Shown piece after piece: positions 4,228-27,048 of a stretch of 64,000 nt of DNA. Positions within the stretch are counted from its first letter, which is position 1; the number at the start of each line of letters is the position of its first letter. The notes beneath the pieces are model-generated. The model did not search any database, was not told the DNA's origin, and was given only the letters and a program-made list of their open reading frames with translations. The position numbers and the translations under genes are program-made. The stretch comes from Sulfurospirillum sp. (GTDB lineage: Bacteria; Campylobacterota; Campylobacteria; Campylobacterales; Sulfurospirillaceae), in assembly GCA_016744795.1 (NCBI GenBank), contig JADGDR010000012.1:1-64000 (forward strand), written 5' to 3'.

Positions 4228-4552
4228 ACTATCTCCTTTATTTAAATAATAGTTATCAGTATATCTGAATATTTATATAAGACCACTAAATAGTTTAAAA
4301 AGAAGATATTAGCATATATTGATGAATAGAAAATTGTAAATTAAACTATAAATACTAAAATTTTATAATTAAACAATGAATGTGATAAAACTACGCTATA
4401 ATCTATACTTACATGAACGAATATTTTTAAATTGCTATAACTTTATATTTAAAAATCTTTGATTTAAAAAATACTTTATGTTATTTGCGTATTAAACTTT
4501 TCAAAGACTACATTCATCTAAAATTTATCTAATATACAAAAGAGGATTACTA
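4228..4552. other. 325-bp AT-rich divergent spacer
   Basis: Lies between the two short basic genes and has no ORF of its own. A TATAAT hexamer sits at 4397-4402 on the plus strand, preceded by GC in a TGATAAAACTACGC context, so transcription towards the plus-strand small gene could start near 4409 and give a leader of about 140 bases. No riboswitch or RNA gene is recognised. Confidence 0.4.
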
Positions 4553-19960: not shown

Positions 19961-20048
19961 AGAGAGGTGTCCGAGTGGTCGAAGGTGCAGACCTGGAACG
20001 TCTGTGTAGTTTATTCTACCGAGGGTTCGAATCCCTTCCTCTCTGCCA
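19961..20048 (+). tRNA. tRNA-Ser (anticodon GGA)
   Basis: An 88-base tRNA with a long variable arm. The acceptor AGAGAGG pairs with CCTCTCT, then discriminator G and encoded CCA. The anticodon stem-loop CAGAC-CTGGAAC-GTCTG gives GGA, and the T-loop is TTCGAAT. Its 3' 17 bases are the left attachment site of the integrated element, and the gene stays intact. A TACATGTA core overlaps its first base. Confidence 0.97.
20032..20048. repeat. attL core in tRNA-Ser 3' end
   Basis: TCCCTTCCTCTCTGCCA, identical to the attR copy. Integration restored the complete tRNA here. Confidence 0.9.
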
Positions 20049-20110
20049 GATTATTCACAAACCCCCATCAATACACACTTTAACACAACTTACAACCCTT
20101 ATAATTTTAA

Positions 20111-20131
20111 GTGTCCAACAAGTGTCCAACA
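20111..20131. promoter_or_regulatory. tandem arm-type sites near attL
   Basis: Two copies of GTGTCCAACA spaced 11 bp apart. The same decamer recurs as a pair next to attR. This pattern fits integrase arm-binding sites. Confidence 0.6.
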
Positions 20132-20282
20132 AAAGAAAAATAGATATTTATACAAAAGAAATAATATTTATTATTTTTCTAAGAGAATTAGTGGAAAATC
20201 TTTAAAAATCTCTTTACATAGTAATAATATAAAACATTGTAGAATACTAAGAGATAAAATTATTAAAAACTTAGAGGCACAA

Positions 20283-21533
20283 ATGGAAAAAGATTTGATG
20301 GATAGAATACTTAATAGTGAAACAGTTACCAGAGAAGAGATGATACAGGTGTATGGCAAAGAATATATTGAGGAAATAGACAAACAATATCAAGAGTCTT
20401 ATGTATATTTGACACCAGAAGAGGAGGAAATACTATACCAAGAAACTTTTAAAAAAGAGATAGCAATAGATAAAGAGATTAAAGAATTAAAAAGAAATAA
20501 AGATAATCAAATCTTGGAAATAGTTCAAAACTTACAAAATAAAAATTCAATGCAAGAACCTAAAAAAGATATAGATAGTAATCTAATATATGATAATTTT
20601 GATGAGTATTATAATAAATATATAGAGCATAAGAAAACTTTTAATAAGGTTTCAAAAGCTTCAATAACTTCTTATAAATCTACTATAAATTATTTAAAAT
20701 ATTTCACCAACAAAGATACTATTTTTAACTTTGCTTTTTTTAAAGAATTACAAAAAAATCTACAACAACTTCCAACCAATTTTTTCAAATATCCAAAATA
20801 CAAAGGAATTACTTTTAAGAAAGTAGTAGAACTAAAAAAGAAAGATAAATACAATACATTAAATACAAAAACAGTAAATAAGCACATTACAAATCTAAAA
20901 TTATTTTTTGAATATTTAGCATATGAAGAAATAATAGAAAGTAATCCACTCCAAAACATAAGGCAACTAATGGAAAATAAAGATACAAGAAAAATAGAAT
21001 ATACAAAACAAGAATTAGAACAAATATTTACAAGTAATTTAGAAATAGATTACCTTAATATGTGTAAAGTAGCACTATACTCAGGTTTGAGAATAGAAGA
21101 GGTTTTAAGTTTAAAAAAAGAAGATATAAAAGATAATATTTTAAATGTAGATATTAAAGATAAAGGAACTAAAAAGCACCAAAGGTCTATTCCACTACAT
21201 AAAAACTTAATTGACACTATCAACCAACAACTAAAAAATAAAGGGAATTACTTATTTTTTAATGGAAATATAGAAAATGAAGTTGGTAATATTGGAAAAA
21301 AACTCAATAGAAGATTACAAAAAATTATAAATAATAAAGATAAAACATTTCACTCTTTAAGAAAAAATTTTAGTCAAGAGTTGGAGTTAAATACAGATAG
21401 TGAAGACAAAATAAAAAAATATTTAATGGGGCATACTTTTAGTAAAGATGTCACCCATATGATTTATAATAGAGGAAAAATAAATCAAGAAAAATTGATA
21501 GATTGTATAAATCAAATTACTTTTATATATTAA
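20283..21533 (+). CDS. tyrosine recombinase integrase
   Basis: A 416-residue site-specific recombinase. An N-terminal extension and SAM-like core-binding domain (about residues 95-220) precede the catalytic domain. All catalytic residues can be found: Arg270 in SGLRIEE, a lysine in the KDKGTKKHQRSIPL strand, His357 and Arg360 in HSLRKNF, His384 in MGHTFSKD and the nucleophile Tyr395 in HMIYNRG. It lies 234 bp from the tRNA-Ser attachment site and points into the element, the standard layout. It would catalyse integration and excision at the 17-bp repeat. Confidence 0.93.
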   Translation: MEKDLMDRILNSETVTREEMIQVYGKEYIEEIDKQYQESYVYLTPEEEEILYQETFKKEIAIDKEIKELKRNKDNQILEIVQNLQNKNSMQEPKKDIDSNLIYDNFDEYYNKYIEHKKTFNKVSKASITSYKSTINYLKYFTNKDTIFNFAFFKELQKNLQQLPTNFFKYPKYKGITFKKVVELKKKDKYNTLNTKTVNKHITNLKLFFEYLAYEEIIESNPLQNIRQLMENKDTRKIEYTKQELEQIFTSNLEIDYLNMCKVALYSGLRIEEVLSLKKEDIKDNILNVDIKDKGTKKHQRSIPLHKNLIDTINQQLKNKGNYLFFNGNIENEVGNIGKKLNRRLQKIINNKDKTFHSLRKNFSQELELNTDSEDKIKKYLMGHTFSKDVTHMIYNRGKINQEKLIDCINQITFIY

Positions 21534-21608
21534 AGCCAAAATTAAAAAGTATAAGTATGTTGGCTAGATTTTGATATAATGACATTAAATTAAAAATATG
21601 GGAATAAA

Positions 21609-21956
21609 ATGATTAAAACAATTTATAGTATTATATTAATACTGGGAGTTATGTTTTTTAGTGGTTGTATTGATACAGGGAACAACCTTCCTATTAGTCA
21701 AATTGGAAATAACTTATATACAGTTAGTTATGCAGATCGTGGATTAGCTTATAAAAATGCATCAAAATATTGTCAAAAACAAAACAAAGTTTTAAAAACT
21801 ATAAGAGAAAGAAATAATCAAAATAGAACATACACAACTACAATAATTGATTTTGCTTGCTTTAAACCTAATAGCAAAGAATATCAAAAAAACAATAATG
21901 AATATGAAGCAACAGATATATCAATAAAAGCAGATATTAAAATAGAAAATAATTAA
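21609..21956 (+). CDS. small lipoprotein of the element
   Basis: A 115-residue protein with a lipoprotein signal peptide ending FFSGC (Cys at about 20) and a mature domain of about 95 residues containing two or three further cysteines and a YADRGLAYKNASKYC segment. That segment resembles small envelope lipoproteins in which an alanine-rich helix leads to an AxxYC. No firm family is assigned. An envelope lipoprotein on a plasmid-like element might act in surface exclusion, but this is speculation. Confidence 0.65.
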   Translation: MIKTIYSIILILGVMFFSGCIDTGNNLPISQIGNNLYTVSYADRGLAYKNASKYCQKQNKVLKTIRERNNQNRTYTTTIIDFACFKPNSKEYQKNNNEYEATDISIKADIKIENN

Positions 21957-21965
21957 TAATATATT

Positions 21966-22328
21966 TTATTTTCTGCTATCATAATAAAAAATTAGTGCTG
22001 ATATAAGAATGTCCTTTGAATACCTACCATTTATTTGAGAAGTAGTAGACTTCACATGTTCACAAGATTTTTGCAATAAATGATGTATTTTTGTAAAACC
22101 ATTTTTAGGGCTTAATTCATAAGATTCAAAGGTATTGTATATACCTTGTGCTTCTTTGTACATTAAATCATATGTTTCCTTGTCTTCTTCTCCATATCTG
22201 TCTAAAATATATTCACATTCAGAAAATATTTTTTTATCTATTATCGAAGGTTGATAATTTTTTTTATCATTAAATGGTTTGGCATAGAATACAGATATGG
22301 TAATTAAAATAAATACTAGTATTTTCAT
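21966..22328 (-). CDS. secreted protein of unknown function
   Basis: A 120-residue protein with a signal peptide (MKILVFILITISVFYA) and a helical mature part with two cysteines (FSECEYILDRY and LLQKSCEHVK) that could form a disulfide. Cys-paired, Tyr-rich helical periplasmic proteins with a final IFYYDS-like helix recall immunity-type small proteins, but I cannot assign a family. It converges with the lipoprotein gene, with only about 9 bp between them. Confidence 0.6.
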   Translation of the reverse strand: MKILVFILITISVFYAKPFNDKKNYQPSIIDKKIFSECEYILDRYGEEDKETYDLMYKEAQGIYNTFESYELSPKNGFTKIHHLLQKSCEHVKSTTSQINGRYSKDILISALIFYYDSRK

Positions 22329-22421
22329 TCTAAATCTCCTAATGAAATATTATACTATAATACCCCAAGAAGTCAAGATAACTTTTTTTAACTATTAAAT
22401 AATCACCTTCATTGAATAAAT

Positions 22422-22607
22422 CTACCTAGATGGTCCAGAGTAAATAGGTTCAGAGTCAATTACTTTCAAAACTTTTTCTTGTATATGAAGACTCAAACAT
22501 CCAATATGTTTTTTACCATATTTTCTAATAAACTTAACACCAGCAGCAACATCAGTAATTAAAAACCTACCATAACCCTTTAACTCTAAAAAATCTAAAT
22601 CACTCAT
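22422..22607 (-). CDS. 61-residue hypothetical protein
   Basis: Begins MSDLDFLELKGYGRFLITD and is rich in short beta/alpha segments. No domain is recognised. AAGGATTTTTTATG offers a ribosome binding site. It lies downstream of the rep gene on the same strand and may be cotranscribed with it. Small downstream genes like this are often copy-control or excision factors in plasmids, which is unproven here. Confidence 0.5.
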   Translation of the reverse strand: MSDLDFLELKGYGRFLITDVAAGVKFIRKYGKKHIGCLSLHIQEKVLKVIDSEPIYSGPSR

Positions 22608-22691
22608 AAAAAATCCTTACATAAAATAATATAGAAACAAAAAGTTTCTAAAATAATTATAGAAAAGTTTTTAAAAAAAGGACACTTTATT

Positions 22692-23411
22692 TTATATTTT
22701 ATTTTTACCAATTGAAAAAGTAATTGTGTCATATTTTCTACCAAGTTTTTTAAATAAATCATACTCAAAAAAAATATCAGTTTTTTCACTAAACTCATTT
22801 TTTGATTTTTCTAAAATATGTAGTTTAATTTTATGTAAGTTGTAAGATTTTGGGACTTGAAACATATCTCTTAATTTATCTATTTCAATTGAAAAAGTAA
22901 TAATTGGATTTTTAGTATGTTTGATACTTTGATTATATTTATGTTTTAAAAGTTCATATAATTTTATAGAATAATTGGATTTTAAAGACAATATATTTTG
23001 AATATCATAAGATAAATATTTATTTTTTAAATCCAATAAAAAAGGGATAAGTTTTGGATGTAACATAAGTTTTAAAAATGAACCATTTCCTTTTAGGTAT
23101 TCTTGGGAGATAATCATATTTGTTTCTAAAATGGATTTTTCCAAATCAATTTTTATATTTGTGGATTGTAGTTCCTTGCTTGCTTTAACCATATCAAGCA
23201 TTATATTTTTACTTTTAGAGTCTATCAATTTTTTATAATCTTGTGAAGTAAATATATATTCTTTAAAATCTTTATCATTTTTTCTTATCATGCAAATTAA
23301 ACAAGACATTATTTTTAAAGCATTCACACTTAATCTATGTTGTGATAAAAGTAATTTTTCATTTTTATTAACCAAATAGTTTGAGTTTTTTTCTATAATT
23401 ATTTTATTCAT
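22692..23411 (-). CDS. rep: Rep_3 family plasmid replication initiator
   Basis: A 239-residue protein with the two winged-helix domains of RepA/RepB/Pi-type initiators. LSVNALKIMSCLICMI in the first half and SYSIKLYELLKHKYNQ-like residues (SNYSIKLYELLKHKY) at about 160 are typical of Rep_3, followed by IDKLRDMFQVPKSY. It would bind origin iterons and load the replisome. It faces away from the mobilization operon across a 710-bp noncoding region. The repeated octamer TATAGAAA around the gene is a candidate binding site. Confidence 0.85.
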   Translation of the reverse strand: MNKIIIEKNSNYLVNKNEKLLLSQHRLSVNALKIMSCLICMIRKNDKDFKEYIFTSQDYKKLIDSKSKNIMLDMVKASKELQSTNIKIDLEKSILETNMIISQEYLKGNGSFLKLMLHPKLIPFLLDLKNKYLSYDIQNILSLKSNYSIKLYELLKHKYNQSIKHTKNPIITFSIEIDKLRDMFQVPKSYNLHKIKLHILEKSKNEFSEKTDIFFEYDLFKKLGRKYDTITFSIGKNKI

Positions 23412-23659
23412 TGTAATCCCTTTATCTTTAATTATAGAAACAAAAAAGGAATAAAGTTATCTTATTACTTAATTTCCCTCTTTTTTACCTTTTACCCCTG
23501 ATTTTTTACCTTATTTTTGCATCAAACACCTACTGGATAGTAGTTTGAGATAAGACAAAAGAATAAAAGAAAAAGAACTATTTTGATTTATTAACTAAAA
23601 GTATGTTTTATTTGGTATTTTTTTGAATGAAATGAAAAAACATATCAAGTAAAACTAAA

Positions 23660-23691
23660 TTATTATTAGGGTGCTTGCACCATAATAATAA
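23660..23691. repeat. 15-bp stem hairpin in origin region
   Basis: Arms TTATTATTAGGGTGC and GCACCATAATAATAA pair with one mismatch around a two-base TT centre. It has a GC-rich tip and AT-rich base, and the size fits an initiator or relaxase target. Confidence 0.8.
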
Positions 23692-23751
23692 ATTACCTGG
23701 CCAAAAAAATTAAAATCTAAAATATATACTAATAAACAATAAGTCATTATT

Positions 23752-23765
23752 CACCCCAAGGGGTG
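23752..23765. repeat. GC-rich hairpin CACCCC-AA-GGGGTG
   Basis: A six-base-pair pure GC/CG-rich stem in very AT-rich DNA, followed by ACACCTGGG. It may be part of oriV, oriT or a single-strand origin. Confidence 0.6.
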
Positions 23766-24074
23766 ACACCTGGGAAAGAAAAGTTTATTCTTATAAATAA
23801 CATAGTCCTATACAGCCATTAAATACCCTTAATTACCTTTACAAATAAAAACTACACATATATACCAAGTTGAAGAAATAAACCATATTTGGCATATATA
23901 AGATAGAAAATCTACTGCTCTCAAAAGAAAAAATAGTTATAAAATCTAACTATTTTAAAAATATTTCTATAAATTGAGTTTTTTTCATATTTATTTCTAT
24001 AATTTAAGAAAGGTAAGCAAGGTTAGTTGAAAGTGCTACACACTTTAAACACTTGTTGGGAAATCCCAAACCCT

Positions 24075-24096
24075 AAAATGGGATACCCCATTTTTT
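24075..24096 (+). terminator. intrinsic terminator/attenuator before mob operon
   Basis: AAAATGGG, loop ATAC, CCCATTTT followed by TTCTTAA: an 8-bp stem with a U-run, 26 bp before the first mob gene. It could end a plasmid control RNA or attenuate mob transcription. Confidence 0.65.
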
Positions 24097-24121
24097 CTTA
24101 ATACAATCAAAGGAGTAAGAA

Positions 24122-24322
24122 ATGAAAAATCTAAAAAATATAGATATCAATAATCTAACTATAAAAAGAGTTGAGATTGATATAGTTGCTAATAAGTTAA
24201 TAGTTGTTTGTATAGATAAAACAAATTGGGAAAAATCATATTATAAAAATCTTGATAATCTTGAATATGAAAATTATGAAAAAAATATAATTGATGTTGT
24301 GAAAAATGGTAAAGCACTATGA
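24122..24322 (+). CDS. 66-residue protein, first gene of mob operon
   Basis: A small mixed alpha/beta protein (begins MKNLKNIDINNLTIKRVEID) of no recognised family. A strong AAAGGAGTAAGAAATG start and an ATGA overlap with mobC show that it is translated and coupled to the mobilization genes. It may be a relaxosome accessory or operon regulator; this is context only. Confidence 0.6.
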   Translation: MKNLKNIDINNLTIKRVEIDIVANKLIVVCIDKTNWEKSYYKNLDNLEYENYEKNIIDVVKNGKAL

Positions 24323-24627
24323 GAAAAGAAACAAAAGGCATTAAATTAAATCTATACCCGCAAGATTATGAAAAAATAAAAATTGCTGCTCAAAGTTTAA
24401 GTATGACAATGGCTCAATATATTAGACATTTAACAAATACAAAATTAGTAAGTGATAGAAAAAAAGTAGTTACCCAAATTGAAAAAGATACATTAAGAGA
24501 ACTTAATCACATTGGAGTTAATTTAAATCAAATAGCAAAAAGATTAAATCAAGATAATAAAATTGATAGTTATGTTTTACAAGCTTTGGAAAATATATCA
24601 CAATATATTCAAGATAAAACACTATGA
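24319..24627 (+). CDS. mobC: MobC-like relaxosome accessory protein
   Basis: A 102-residue protein. The N-terminal ribbon-helix-helix-like part (KGIKLNLYPQDYEKIKIAA...MTMAQYIRHL) binds DNA in this family. The C-terminal LNHIGVNLNQIAKRLNQ is the hallmark of MobC/MbeC proteins that melt oriT and help the relaxase nick. Both ends overlap neighbours by ATGA, so the three genes are translationally coupled. Confidence 0.85.
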   Translation: MRKETKGIKLNLYPQDYEKIKIAAQSLSMTMAQYIRHLTNTKLVSDRKKVVTQIEKDTLRELNHIGVNLNQIAKRLNQDNKIDSYVLQALENISQYIQDKTL

Positions 24628-26885
24628 AAGTTTTAACAAGTGGAGGGAAAATGGGTGTTGTTGAGTATGTCATGAGAGAGGGAAAAGATTTTAATTTTAA
24701 TGAAATAGTTTTAATAGATGGGAATCCAACCATTACAAAAAAAATCATTAACACAATGGAATATAAAGAAAATTATAAAAGATTTGTTTTAACTTTTGAG
24801 GGAAAGCCAAGTAATAAGAAAATGTTAAATGCCTATAATAAATGGAAAAAATTATATATGGATAACACATATAGGAAAGAGGAATATAATATATTAAGTG
24901 TTTTACATAAAGACACAGAAAATTATCATATTCATATCACAATACCAAATCAAAACCTAATCACAAATACAAGATTGGATGCTTATTTAGATAAACAAGA
25001 TAGACCAAGAATGAATGAAATAAGAGATTATATCAATCTTGAAAATGGATGGCAAAGTCAAGATTTATCAAAAATAAAAAACAATGAACCACTTCAAACA
25101 CAAGAGGAAATTATTAACATTTGGAGAAAACAACATAATCAAAAAATTAAACCAATAAGAAAAGAAAAACAAAAAACTCAAGCATTATCAAAATTAGTAA
25201 ATGGTTTAGTTGTTAATTCTATAAAAAATGGGAATATAGAAAATATAAAAGACATTGAAAATCTTGTTAATGATTTTGGAAATTATACTTTTTTAAAACA
25301 AGGTCAAGACACTATTAAAAACTTTTCATATATTAGCATAGAGGAAAAAGATACACACAAAAAATATAGAATAAAAAGTGAAGTGTATGAAAAAGATTAT
25401 GATTACAATGAAGCATATATAGAACTTAATTTGGCAGGAAAAGAAAAAGATATATTTCAAAAGATAACACCTAAAAAATGGAAATTAAGAACACAAGAAT
25501 TAGAAAAAGTTTTACCAATTAAATTAGAAAAAATACAAAAAATGAATAAAAAAGCTCAACAAAGAATTAGCAATAATACATCCAAAAAATCAAAGGAAAA
25601 ACTAAATGACTACTATACAAATAATAGAACAATTAAAACAACTAATACCACAAGAAAGTCCCCAAGAATTAGAACTATTACAAAACTTGGAGACACAATT
25701 AGAAAAGACATTACAAGACAAGAACAAGCAAATAGACTTTTATCATCAAGAATGGCTGGAACTAGACACAATGCTGGAAAACTTAAAAAAGGAATTGAAA
25801 TTATGAAAAAATCTAAAGTTGAAAAATTAAAACAAGAAATCAATTTAGCAGAGTATGCTTCAATGTGTGGATTTACAATTAAAAAAAGTTCTAAAAATGG
25901 AAAATCAAATGTAGAAATGACAAATGGAAATGAAACTATACATATAGGAAAAAAACCAGATGGAACATATGTTTATAATGACTTTTTAAATGGAAAAGGT
26001 GGAAGTATTATAGATTTTTATACTCATTATGTAAATGATAAAAAAGTATATTGGCAAGTATTGAATGAATTAGAAAAATACTATAAAAACCCAAGAAGTA
26101 ATTTTAAATATACATTATCAAAAAAAGTTATAGATTTTGAAAGTGCTGAAAAAGAATGGGATAGATTGAGAGTTATAACATTAGATAATACCTATCTAAC
26201 ACAAGAAAGAAAAATAGCACCAGAGACAATAAATATCTTTAAAGACGCTATTAAACAAGATACTAAAAACAACATATGTTTTATACATAAAAACTATACA
26301 TATGAAGACAAAAGAATAAAAATTGACACTTGTGGAATTGAAAGAAAAAACTATAATGGTTTTAAAAATCATACAAATCAAAAAGGATTATGGGGAACAA
26401 ACATAGGAAAAAATAATGATATCTTTTTATTTGAAAGTCCTTTGGATGCTATGTCATGCTATGAACTATATAAAAAGGATGGCATGTATATTTCATTAGG
26501 AGGGTCACCAAGTGTAAAACAATTATATGATTTAATGGAAGTGTCAAAATATACTCAAAAAAACATAACTACTTGTTTTGATAATGACAAAAATAATAAA
26601 GGTCAAGAATTAGCAATAAAAATAAAAACTTTTCTTTCCCAGGAGTTCCCTGAAAGGGAAATAAATGATATCAAGCCAATTTTGAATGACTGGAATGAGG
26701 AACTAATAAACAAGAAAGAAAATGAATTAATTTCAGCAGAAAAACTAAAAATTAAATTGAAAGAAAAACAAGATAAAGAAACCTTTGGACCAGATGGAGA
26801 TAAAATACCTTTTGGAGATACTAAAAAACAAGATGGACTTATACAAGAATATCCTAGTTTAGAAATTAAAGGACTATGGTATTAA
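24624..26885 (+). CDS. relaxase-primase fusion (MobA/RepB-like)
   Basis: A 753-residue protein. Residues 1-170 form a MobA/VirD2-type relaxase: a candidate catalytic Tyr15 in GVVEYVMREGK and the metal-binding motif HKDTENYHIHI with His95, His102 and His104. A basic, Thr-rich linker spans about 300-393. Residues 394-753 look like a primase with a DUF3991-like segment (EYASMCGFTI...YNDFLNGKGGSIIDFY) and a Toprim domain: Glu in FLFESPLDAMSCYE near 604 and the Asp pair in CFDNDKNNKG near 651. It would nick oriT, lead the strand into the recipient and prime complementary synthesis. It is coupled to mobC by ATGA. Confidence 0.87.
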   Translation: MKVLTSGGKMGVVEYVMREGKDFNFNEIVLIDGNPTITKKIINTMEYKENYKRFVLTFEGKPSNKKMLNAYNKWKKLYMDNTYRKEEYNILSVLHKDTENYHIHITIPNQNLITNTRLDAYLDKQDRPRMNEIRDYINLENGWQSQDLSKIKNNEPLQTQEEIINIWRKQHNQKIKPIRKEKQKTQALSKLVNGLVVNSIKNGNIENIKDIENLVNDFGNYTFLKQGQDTIKNFSYISIEEKDTHKKYRIKSEVYEKDYDYNEAYIELNLAGKEKDIFQKITPKKWKLRTQELEKVLPIKLEKIQKMNKKAQQRISNNTSKKSKEKLNDYYTNNRTIKTTNTTRKSPRIRTITKLGDTIRKDITRQEQANRLLSSRMAGTRHNAGKLKKGIEIMKKSKVEKLKQEINLAEYASMCGFTIKKSSKNGKSNVEMTNGNETIHIGKKPDGTYVYNDFLNGKGGSIIDFYTHYVNDKKVYWQVLNELEKYYKNPRSNFKYTLSKKVIDFESAEKEWDRLRVITLDNTYLTQERKIAPETINIFKDAIKQDTKNNICFIHKNYTYEDKRIKIDTCGIERKNYNGFKNHTNQKGLWGTNIGKNNDIFLFESPLDAMSCYELYKKDGMYISLGGSPSVKQLYDLMEVSKYTQKNITTCFDNDKNNKGQELAIKIKTFLSQEFPEREINDIKPILNDWNEELINKKENELISAEKLKIKLKEKQDKETFGPDGDKIPFGDTKKQDGLIQEYPSLEIKGLWY
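25606..25806 (+). CDS. overlapping MobB/MbeD-like small gene inside relaxase
   Basis: A 66-residue ORF in the +1 frame inside the relaxase linker. It has its own AAGGA eight bases before ATG. It begins MTTIQIIEQLKQLIPQESPQ and continues as a Leu/Gln/Glu-rich amphipathic helix (NLETQLEKTLQDKNKQIDFY), like the coiled-coil mobilization proteins MbeD/MobB. In this interval the relaxase frame is a low-complexity Thr/Arg/Lys linker, as expected where a second frame is constrained. Its TGA overlaps the internal ATG at 25803. It is not proven to be expressed. Confidence 0.5.
   Translation: MTTIQIIEQLKQLIPQESPQELELLQNLETQLEKTLQDKNKQIDFYHQEWLELDTMLENLKKELKL
25803..26885 (+). CDS. possible separate primase from internal start
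   Basis: ATG at 25803 is in frame with the relaxase (codon 394), starts precisely at the primase domain (MKKSKVEKLKQEIN) and is preceded by AAAAAAGGAATTGAAATT, a ribosome binding site. The overlapping small gene ends in the same ATGA, which would couple translation. RSF1010 makes a free primase RepB' from within mobA/repB in this way. This is an alternative product of the same gene. Confidence 0.45.
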   Translation: MKKSKVEKLKQEINLAEYASMCGFTIKKSSKNGKSNVEMTNGNETIHIGKKPDGTYVYNDFLNGKGGSIIDFYTHYVNDKKVYWQVLNELEKYYKNPRSNFKYTLSKKVIDFESAEKEWDRLRVITLDNTYLTQERKIAPETINIFKDAIKQDTKNNICFIHKNYTYEDKRIKIDTCGIERKNYNGFKNHTNQKGLWGTNIGKNNDIFLFESPLDAMSCYELYKKDGMYISLGGSPSVKQLYDLMEVSKYTQKNITTCFDNDKNNKGQELAIKIKTFLSQEFPEREINDIKPILNDWNEELINKKENELISAEKLKIKLKEKQDKETFGPDGDKIPFGDTKKQDGLIQEYPSLEIKGLWY

Positions 26886-26934
26886 ATAGGAGTATTTACT
26901 TAATTAAACACATTTTAACCTTTAAAAATGTAAT

Positions 26935-26956
26935 ATGTCCAACAAAGTGTCCAACA
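26935..26956. promoter_or_regulatory. tandem arm-type sites near attR
   Basis: ATGTCCAACA and GTGTCCAACA, 12 bp apart, match the pair beside attL in sequence and orientation. Confidence 0.6.
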
Positions 26957-27031
26957 CTAAAAAAAGGAAAAATATGTCAATAAAGCCCATAAATAAGGGG
27001 TTTTGTGGATACAACAAGGCTTGGAGCAACT

Positions 27032-27048
27032 TCCCTTCCTCTCTGCCA
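27032..27048. repeat. attR core (tRNA-Ser 3' fragment)
   Basis: Identical to the last 17 bases of tRNA-Ser, CCA included; the tRNA body is absent here. Confidence 0.9.

Follow-up and report, generated by a model that had tools for sequence, protein, structure and literature searches.

An open reading frame of 66 codons that lies in the +1 frame within the relaxase-primase gene of a mobile element of Sulfurospirillum sp. is, as judged from comparison with its relatives, a real overlapping gene, as the initial annotation had supposed. The explanation proposed here as a whole, comprising a real gene in the mbeD slot with its own ribosome-binding site, the loss of mbeB, three products, and a fusion derived from an adjacent primase gene, is considered probable.

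The window, which is the whole stretch of DNA analyzed, is 64,000 nucleotides in length. Within it, a stretch of approximately 7 kb between tRNA-Ser(GGA) repeats carries an integrase, a Rep_3 initiator, a 66-aa ORF, mobC, and the relaxase-primase gene of 753 codons, and this stretch (20032-27048), which has a mobilization module of the ColE1 type, is an integrative mobilizable element in tRNA-Ser(GGA). The features are as follows, where L002 denotes the close relative described below.

19961-20048, tRNA-Ser(GGA) gene, the last 17 nt of which recur at 27032
20032-20048, plus strand, attL-like end within tRNA-Ser(GGA), 17-nt repeat TCCCTTCCTCTCTGCCA
20283-21533, plus strand, tyrosine integrase (Pfam Phage_integrase)
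22692-23411, minus strand, Rep_3-type replication initiator (Pfam Rep3_N and Rep3_C)
24014-24021, plus strand, tentative candidate oriT nic region TAAGCAAG
24122-24322, plus strand, 66-aa ORF before mobC, in ATGA overlap with mobC, 51% identity in L002
24319-24627, plus strand, mobC of the NikA/MobC family (Pfam NikA-like and MobC), in ATGA overlap with the relaxase start
24624-26885, plus strand, mobA-primase gene, 753 codons (Pfam Relaxase, DUF3991, and Toprim_2)
25593-25597, plus strand, Shine-Dalgarno AAGGA of the embedded gene, 8 nt before its start, anti-SD energy -5.8
25606-25806, plus strand, embedded gene, in frame +1 relative to the relaxase gene, ATG start, 66 aa, coiled-coil-like
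25789-25793, plus strand, Shine-Dalgarno AAGGA of the internal primase start, 9 nt before ATG 25803, anti-SD energy -7.7
25803-25806, plus strand, ATGA, in which the internal in-frame ATG of the primase overlaps the embedded TGA stop
25803-26885, plus strand, predicted free primase of 360 aa from the internal ATG
27032-27048, plus strand, attR-like copy of the tRNA 3' end

The 66-aa ORF at 24122-24322, for which no significant family match was found, is joined by ATGA overlaps to mobC and, through mobC, to the relaxase gene. A candidate ColE1-like nic site is located at 24014 (TAAGCAAGG), with the counterpart TAAGCCAGG in L002, and TAAGCCAG is present upstream of mobC/mbeC in both L002 and ColE1. 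In the 753-aa product, Pfam places Relaxase (PF03432) at the N-terminus and DUF3991 with Toprim_2 at the C-terminus, such that the MOBP relaxase occupies codons 1 to ~326, the linker shared with the embedded gene codons 328-394, and the DnaG-like primase codons 394-753. The arrangement that the initial annotation had described, namely an ORF in another frame with its own AAGGA and a stop sharing ATGA with an ATG that follows a second AAGGA, is present in the sequence in every detail. Apart from this ORF, the relaxase gene contains no +1 ORF of at least 50 aa and no embedded mbeB with a membrane segment.

A single close relative sharing the short form was found, L002, which is a contig of 7.3 kb assigned to a Pseudodesulfovibrio MAG and has a relaxase of 62% identity. 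This contig may be misbinned, and its relaxase frame (4282-4520) is broken near codon 60, which represents either a frameshift or an assembly error. The initial annotation had named conservation in homologues as the check on which its reading could fall, together with synonymous-site constraint, and both checks were run. L002 keeps the embedded ORF (65% amino acid identity), its start, its Shine-Dalgarno sequence, and the ATGA, and the 9-nt gap between the two sequences leaves both frames intact. The synonymous difference in the relaxase frame is 0.18 across the overlap versus 0.50 in both flanks, and the pN/pS of this frame in the overlap is 1.36 overall and 2.45 over the second half, whereas that of the embedded frame is 0.42. 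With the relaxase amino acids fixed, the +1 frame remains open in only 0.01% of synonymous recodings of the Sulfurospirillum gene and 0.86% of those of L002. Furthermore, when L002 was recoded synonymously 20,000 times, the observed embedded-frame similarity was never reached (maximum 163 versus 190 observed), and the maximum for recodings of the Sulfurospirillum gene was 159. The reversal of pN/pS between the frames, in combination with the recoding result, indicates that the embedded protein is under selection and dictates much of the relaxase linker in this region.

The ORF might instead be open by chance, in a linker that is AT-rich and repetitive, and its length would allow this, since a +1 ORF of equal or greater length arose anywhere in the gene in 187 of 5000 codon-preserving shuffles (P = 0.037), with P = 0.015 for the same test in L002; as these values are weak, the first observation alone is insufficient, and ORF length was rejected as proof of an embedded gene. 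Chance would nevertheless have to explain the conserved frame and stop position, the opposite pN/pS of the two frames, the recodings that never reached the observed similarity, and the ORFs at the same frame and position in relatives from other phyla, and it is therefore regarded as very improbable. An equally small probability is assigned to the reading that the low synonymous rate stems from a signal in the RNA or DNA of the linker, such as transcript structure. This reading draws on sliding windows in which synonymous differences are somewhat low just upstream of the overlap as well, although identical-residue codons show no significant effect there (P = 0.40); against it, the constraint tracks the codons of the +1 frame, and the gap length is divisible by three. 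The count of identical codons at identical residues, 29 of 33 in the overlap compared with ~71% elsewhere (P = 0.04), agrees weakly with selection on the embedded protein. Searches with the 66-aa embedded protein gave no match in plasmids by tblastn and non-significant matches only in Pfam and NCBIfam. Viral contigs gave no relatives in one search and, in others, matches mainly to the primase part.

The identity of the embedded gene is best approached through the relaxase that contains it. Among NCBIfam models, the best match of the relaxase is NF047848 MbeA, at 49.5 bits against a model cut-off of 500, followed by a model at 19.9; in Pfam, it matches PF03432 only and not the MOBQ family PF03389. 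On these profile matches, the relaxase is of the MOBP class, nearest to ColE1 MbeA, and not MOBQ. Its motif III (HKDTENYHIH) keeps the histidines, unlike that of ColE1 MbeA, which is reported to be without two histidines (PMC3447787). MobB and MobD of ColE-like plasmids have been described as internally encoded (PMC9282650), and in ColE1, both MbeB and MbeD are embedded within the relaxase gene in the +1 frame. Several MOBP loci of Campylobacterota that have no primase carry an mbeB-/mbeD-like pair in the same frame, consisting of a longer protein with a hydrophobic segment and then a coiled-coil-like protein mostly starting with MT-x-LE.

Fusions with the primase display the same order. In plasmids of Citrobacter (L003), Polaromonas (L036), Chondrocystis (L037), and Rippkaea (L038), mbeB-like and mbeD-like ORFs in the +1 frame lie directly before the primase, and in these four and L002, the distance from the end of the embedded stop to the I of the conserved I-N/S-L motif of the primase is exactly 42 nt. 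The Chondrocystis and Citrobacter ORFs have NCBIfam MbeD as best match over nearly the full model length, below the cut-off, and the Sulfurospirillum ORF shares frame and position with the mbeD of these relatives. By an MbeD sequence profile, the Sulfurospirillum ORF is not a significant MbeD, with 17 bits and a shuffle P of 0.03 to 0.11, where left-out members reached 32-43 bits, and the L002 ORF does better (shuffle P 0.0003 to 0.001); the larger version of the profile was relied on (P 0.027 and 0.11 for the Sulfurospirillum ORF), and the smaller gave 0.0055 and 0.039. The embedded ORF thus appears to fill the mbeD slot, with the mbeB slot empty, an argument that is mainly positional, since the profile match of the Sulfurospirillum ORF is weak. 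A MOBP relaxase in which only the mbeD position is filled suggests a ColE1-type module joined to a DnaG-like primase exactly where mbeD ends. The ColE1-type module itself (mbeC-mbeA with embedded mbeB and mbeD; MOBP5) shares with the element an upstream overlapping MobC-type gene, an MbeA-like MOBP relaxase, a +1-frame embedded gene in the mbeD position, and a similar candidate nic site, and it differs in possessing mbeB and in having neither a primase fused after mbeD nor an internal primase start.

RSF1010 produces MobA/RepB, MobB, and RepB'. The RSF1010-type comparison was conducted on pMS260 and pDN1, in which mobA/repB carries mobB in its +1 frame, and the likely start of RepB', an ATG in frame with mobA/repB, precedes the end of the mobB stop by 24 nt; this bears out the likeness to RSF1010 drawn in the initial annotation. 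The shared elements are the fusion of relaxase and primase, the embedded +1-frame gene, and the meeting of its end with an internal primase start. In contrast, RSF1010 combines a MOBQ relaxase with a RepB-family primase, whereas the Sulfurospirillum element combines a MOBP relaxase with a DnaG-like Toprim primase, and mobB is longer than the embedded ORF and has a membrane segment. Indeed, pMS260 contains the MOBQ relaxase domain PF03389 (124 bits) and RepB_primase PF16793, neither of which is present in the Sulfurospirillum gene, and the earlier statement that its primase (Toprim_2/DUF3991) belongs to a family other than that of RSF1010 is correct. The further suggestion that the layout was reached independently holds for the primase fusion, where the families are unrelated, and does not necessarily hold for the embedding, as ColE1-type modules also embed mbeB and mbeD. 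Since the primases are unrelated, at least the primase part was presumably acquired separately, whereas the presence of a +1-frame membrane protein gene in both ColE1-type and RSF1010-type relaxases (mbeB and mobB, respectively) makes an older common origin of the embedding possible. IncQ-2 plasmids such as pTC-F14, which have a MOBP relaxase and a RepB primase, share with the element the fusion of a primase to a MOBP relaxase and differ in the RepB family of that primase and in their clustered mob accessory genes (PMC12375680).

Toprim_2 is known as a DnaG-like primase domain of mobile elements (PMC5512222). The primase profile matches the T7 gp4 primase (E 3e-8), and the acidic residues E211, D215, D260, and D262 of the free primase (the E and DxD motifs) are invariant in 10 proteins, so that the DUF3991 and Toprim_2 part can be assigned as a DnaG-like primase with predicted priming activity. 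An AlphaFold model of the free primase, computed from two sequences, had a mean pLDDT of 35 and was discarded. ATG 25803 has the second-best Shine-Dalgarno energy among 17 in-frame ATG/GTG codons of the Sulfurospirillum gene, and its L002 counterpart has the best among 14. At the same junction, L002 has ATGA, Citrobacter has GTGA with GGGAG, and Polaromonas has an ATG 9 nt beyond the stop end, and the internal starts of these three and of the Sulfurospirillum gene align with the native N-termini of three stand-alone DUF3991/Toprim primases (L040, L041, and L042). No ATG/GTG was found near the relaxase-primase junction of the cyanobacterial relatives (Chondrocystis and Rippkaea), and no embedded ORF was found in a Nitratiruptor fusion (L080). 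Given the good start and strong Shine-Dalgarno sequence here, and the absence of the start in the cyanobacterial plasmids and of the embedded gene in Nitratiruptor, internal initiation at ATG 25803 is likely in the Sulfurospirillum locus but is not fixed across all relaxase-Toprim fusions.

Two alternatives accept the embedded gene and differ in its identity or in the use of the primase start. The embedded gene could be a shortened counterpart of RSF1010 mobB, with which it shares the +1 frame and, as in pMS260 and pDN1, adjacency to the primase start; however, MobB and MbeB are longer and have a hydrophobic C-terminal segment that is absent from the embedded ORF, and in relatives with both genes, it is mbeD and not mbeB that adjoins the primase. 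The equation with mobB implied by the initial annotation is accordingly not the best reading, given a MOBP relaxase near MbeA and an ORF in the mbeD position, and it is considered improbable. More weight, although still that of an unlikely reading, is given to a real mbeD-like gene whose neighboring primase acts only within the fusion, the ATGA being a relic of that fusion and unused as a start. The cyanobacterial relatives, which keep the fusion and the embedded genes without a junction start codon, favor this possibility and suggest that the family does not depend on free primase, but the rank of the internal ATG among in-frame starts, the junction codons of Citrobacter and Polaromonas, and the alignment with stand-alone N-termini all argue against it.

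The reading preferred here, in which an mbeD-type gene precedes a primase that is also made in free form, combines computed results, namely the overlap, its conservation and constraint, the positional match to mbeD, and the comparison of the internal start with natural primase N-termini, with steps that we infer, namely that three products are translated, what each of them does, and how the fusion originated. The small protein would be translated from its own ribosome-binding site, and the overlap of its stop with the internal start suggests that ribosomes finishing it probably re-start on the primase. As in RSF1010, three products would be formed, a relaxase-primase, a small accessory protein for mobilization, and a free primase, with functions predicted from their families. 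The full-length protein would nick oriT and, exported by a helper system, take the primase into the recipient, while the free primase may serve complementary-strand or vegetative priming. Before the fusion, a separate primase gene probably lay next to mbeD, with a start that overlapped the stop of mbeD; the fusion would then have come about when the relaxase frame upstream became continuous with this gene. The mbeB slot would have been lost from the module.

The plasmids of Polaromonas naphthalenivorans (pPNAP08), Citrobacter, Chondrocystis, and Rippkaea share the relaxase-Toprim architecture with +1 embedded mob genes and differ in keeping mbeB, in an mbeD that is mostly longer, and in an internal start that is GTG, an ATG 9 nt past the stop end, or absent. 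Their embedded genes are absent from the examined records, for which the PLSDB gene tables are incomplete. No published description of a relaxase-Toprim fusion with an embedded gene was found in a literature search that was thin on subscription journals. The fusion of pPNAP08 accompanies an IncQ RepC (E 1e-162) and a RepA-type helicase; as no other primase is annotated, the Toprim part may be able to replace RepB. The chances are considered even that a cross-phylum mob gene family convergently rebuilt the three-product layout of RSF1010 from different parts, its relaxase being MOBP, its overlapping gene of the mbeD type, and its primase DnaG-like, with a free form that would arise by termination-reinitiation at the overlapping stop, and that in some plasmids (pPNAP08) this primase replaces RepB in an IncQ replicon.

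These results suggest that one gene can accommodate an enzyme for transfer, an accessory protein, and a primase for replication, and that the same slot has recruited unrelated primases. pPNAP08 would make it directly testable whether the primase family matters in IncQ-type replication. As the hidden gene occupies the more constrained frame compared with the annotated one, annotation pipelines can miss a functional protein.

Several additional observations were made. In pPNAP08, the MOBP-Toprim gene stands in the place of mobA/repB, as if the primase of an IncQ replicon had been exchanged. The Nitratiruptor plasmid gene (1728-4850 of L080) encodes a 1040-aa relaxase with LPD7 and Toprim_2, a different relaxase-primase fusion, and in L010, a Mob_Pre (MOBV) relaxase is fused to DUF3991/Toprim, representing another relaxase family with the same kind of primase. 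Within the Sulfurospirillum element, TGTCCAAC-type repeats just inside both ends resemble integrase arm sites, and the region from the rep gene to the mob operon contains a 19-nt inverted repeat (23656-23695; 89% complementary, 2-nt gap), located in a stretch conserved in L002.
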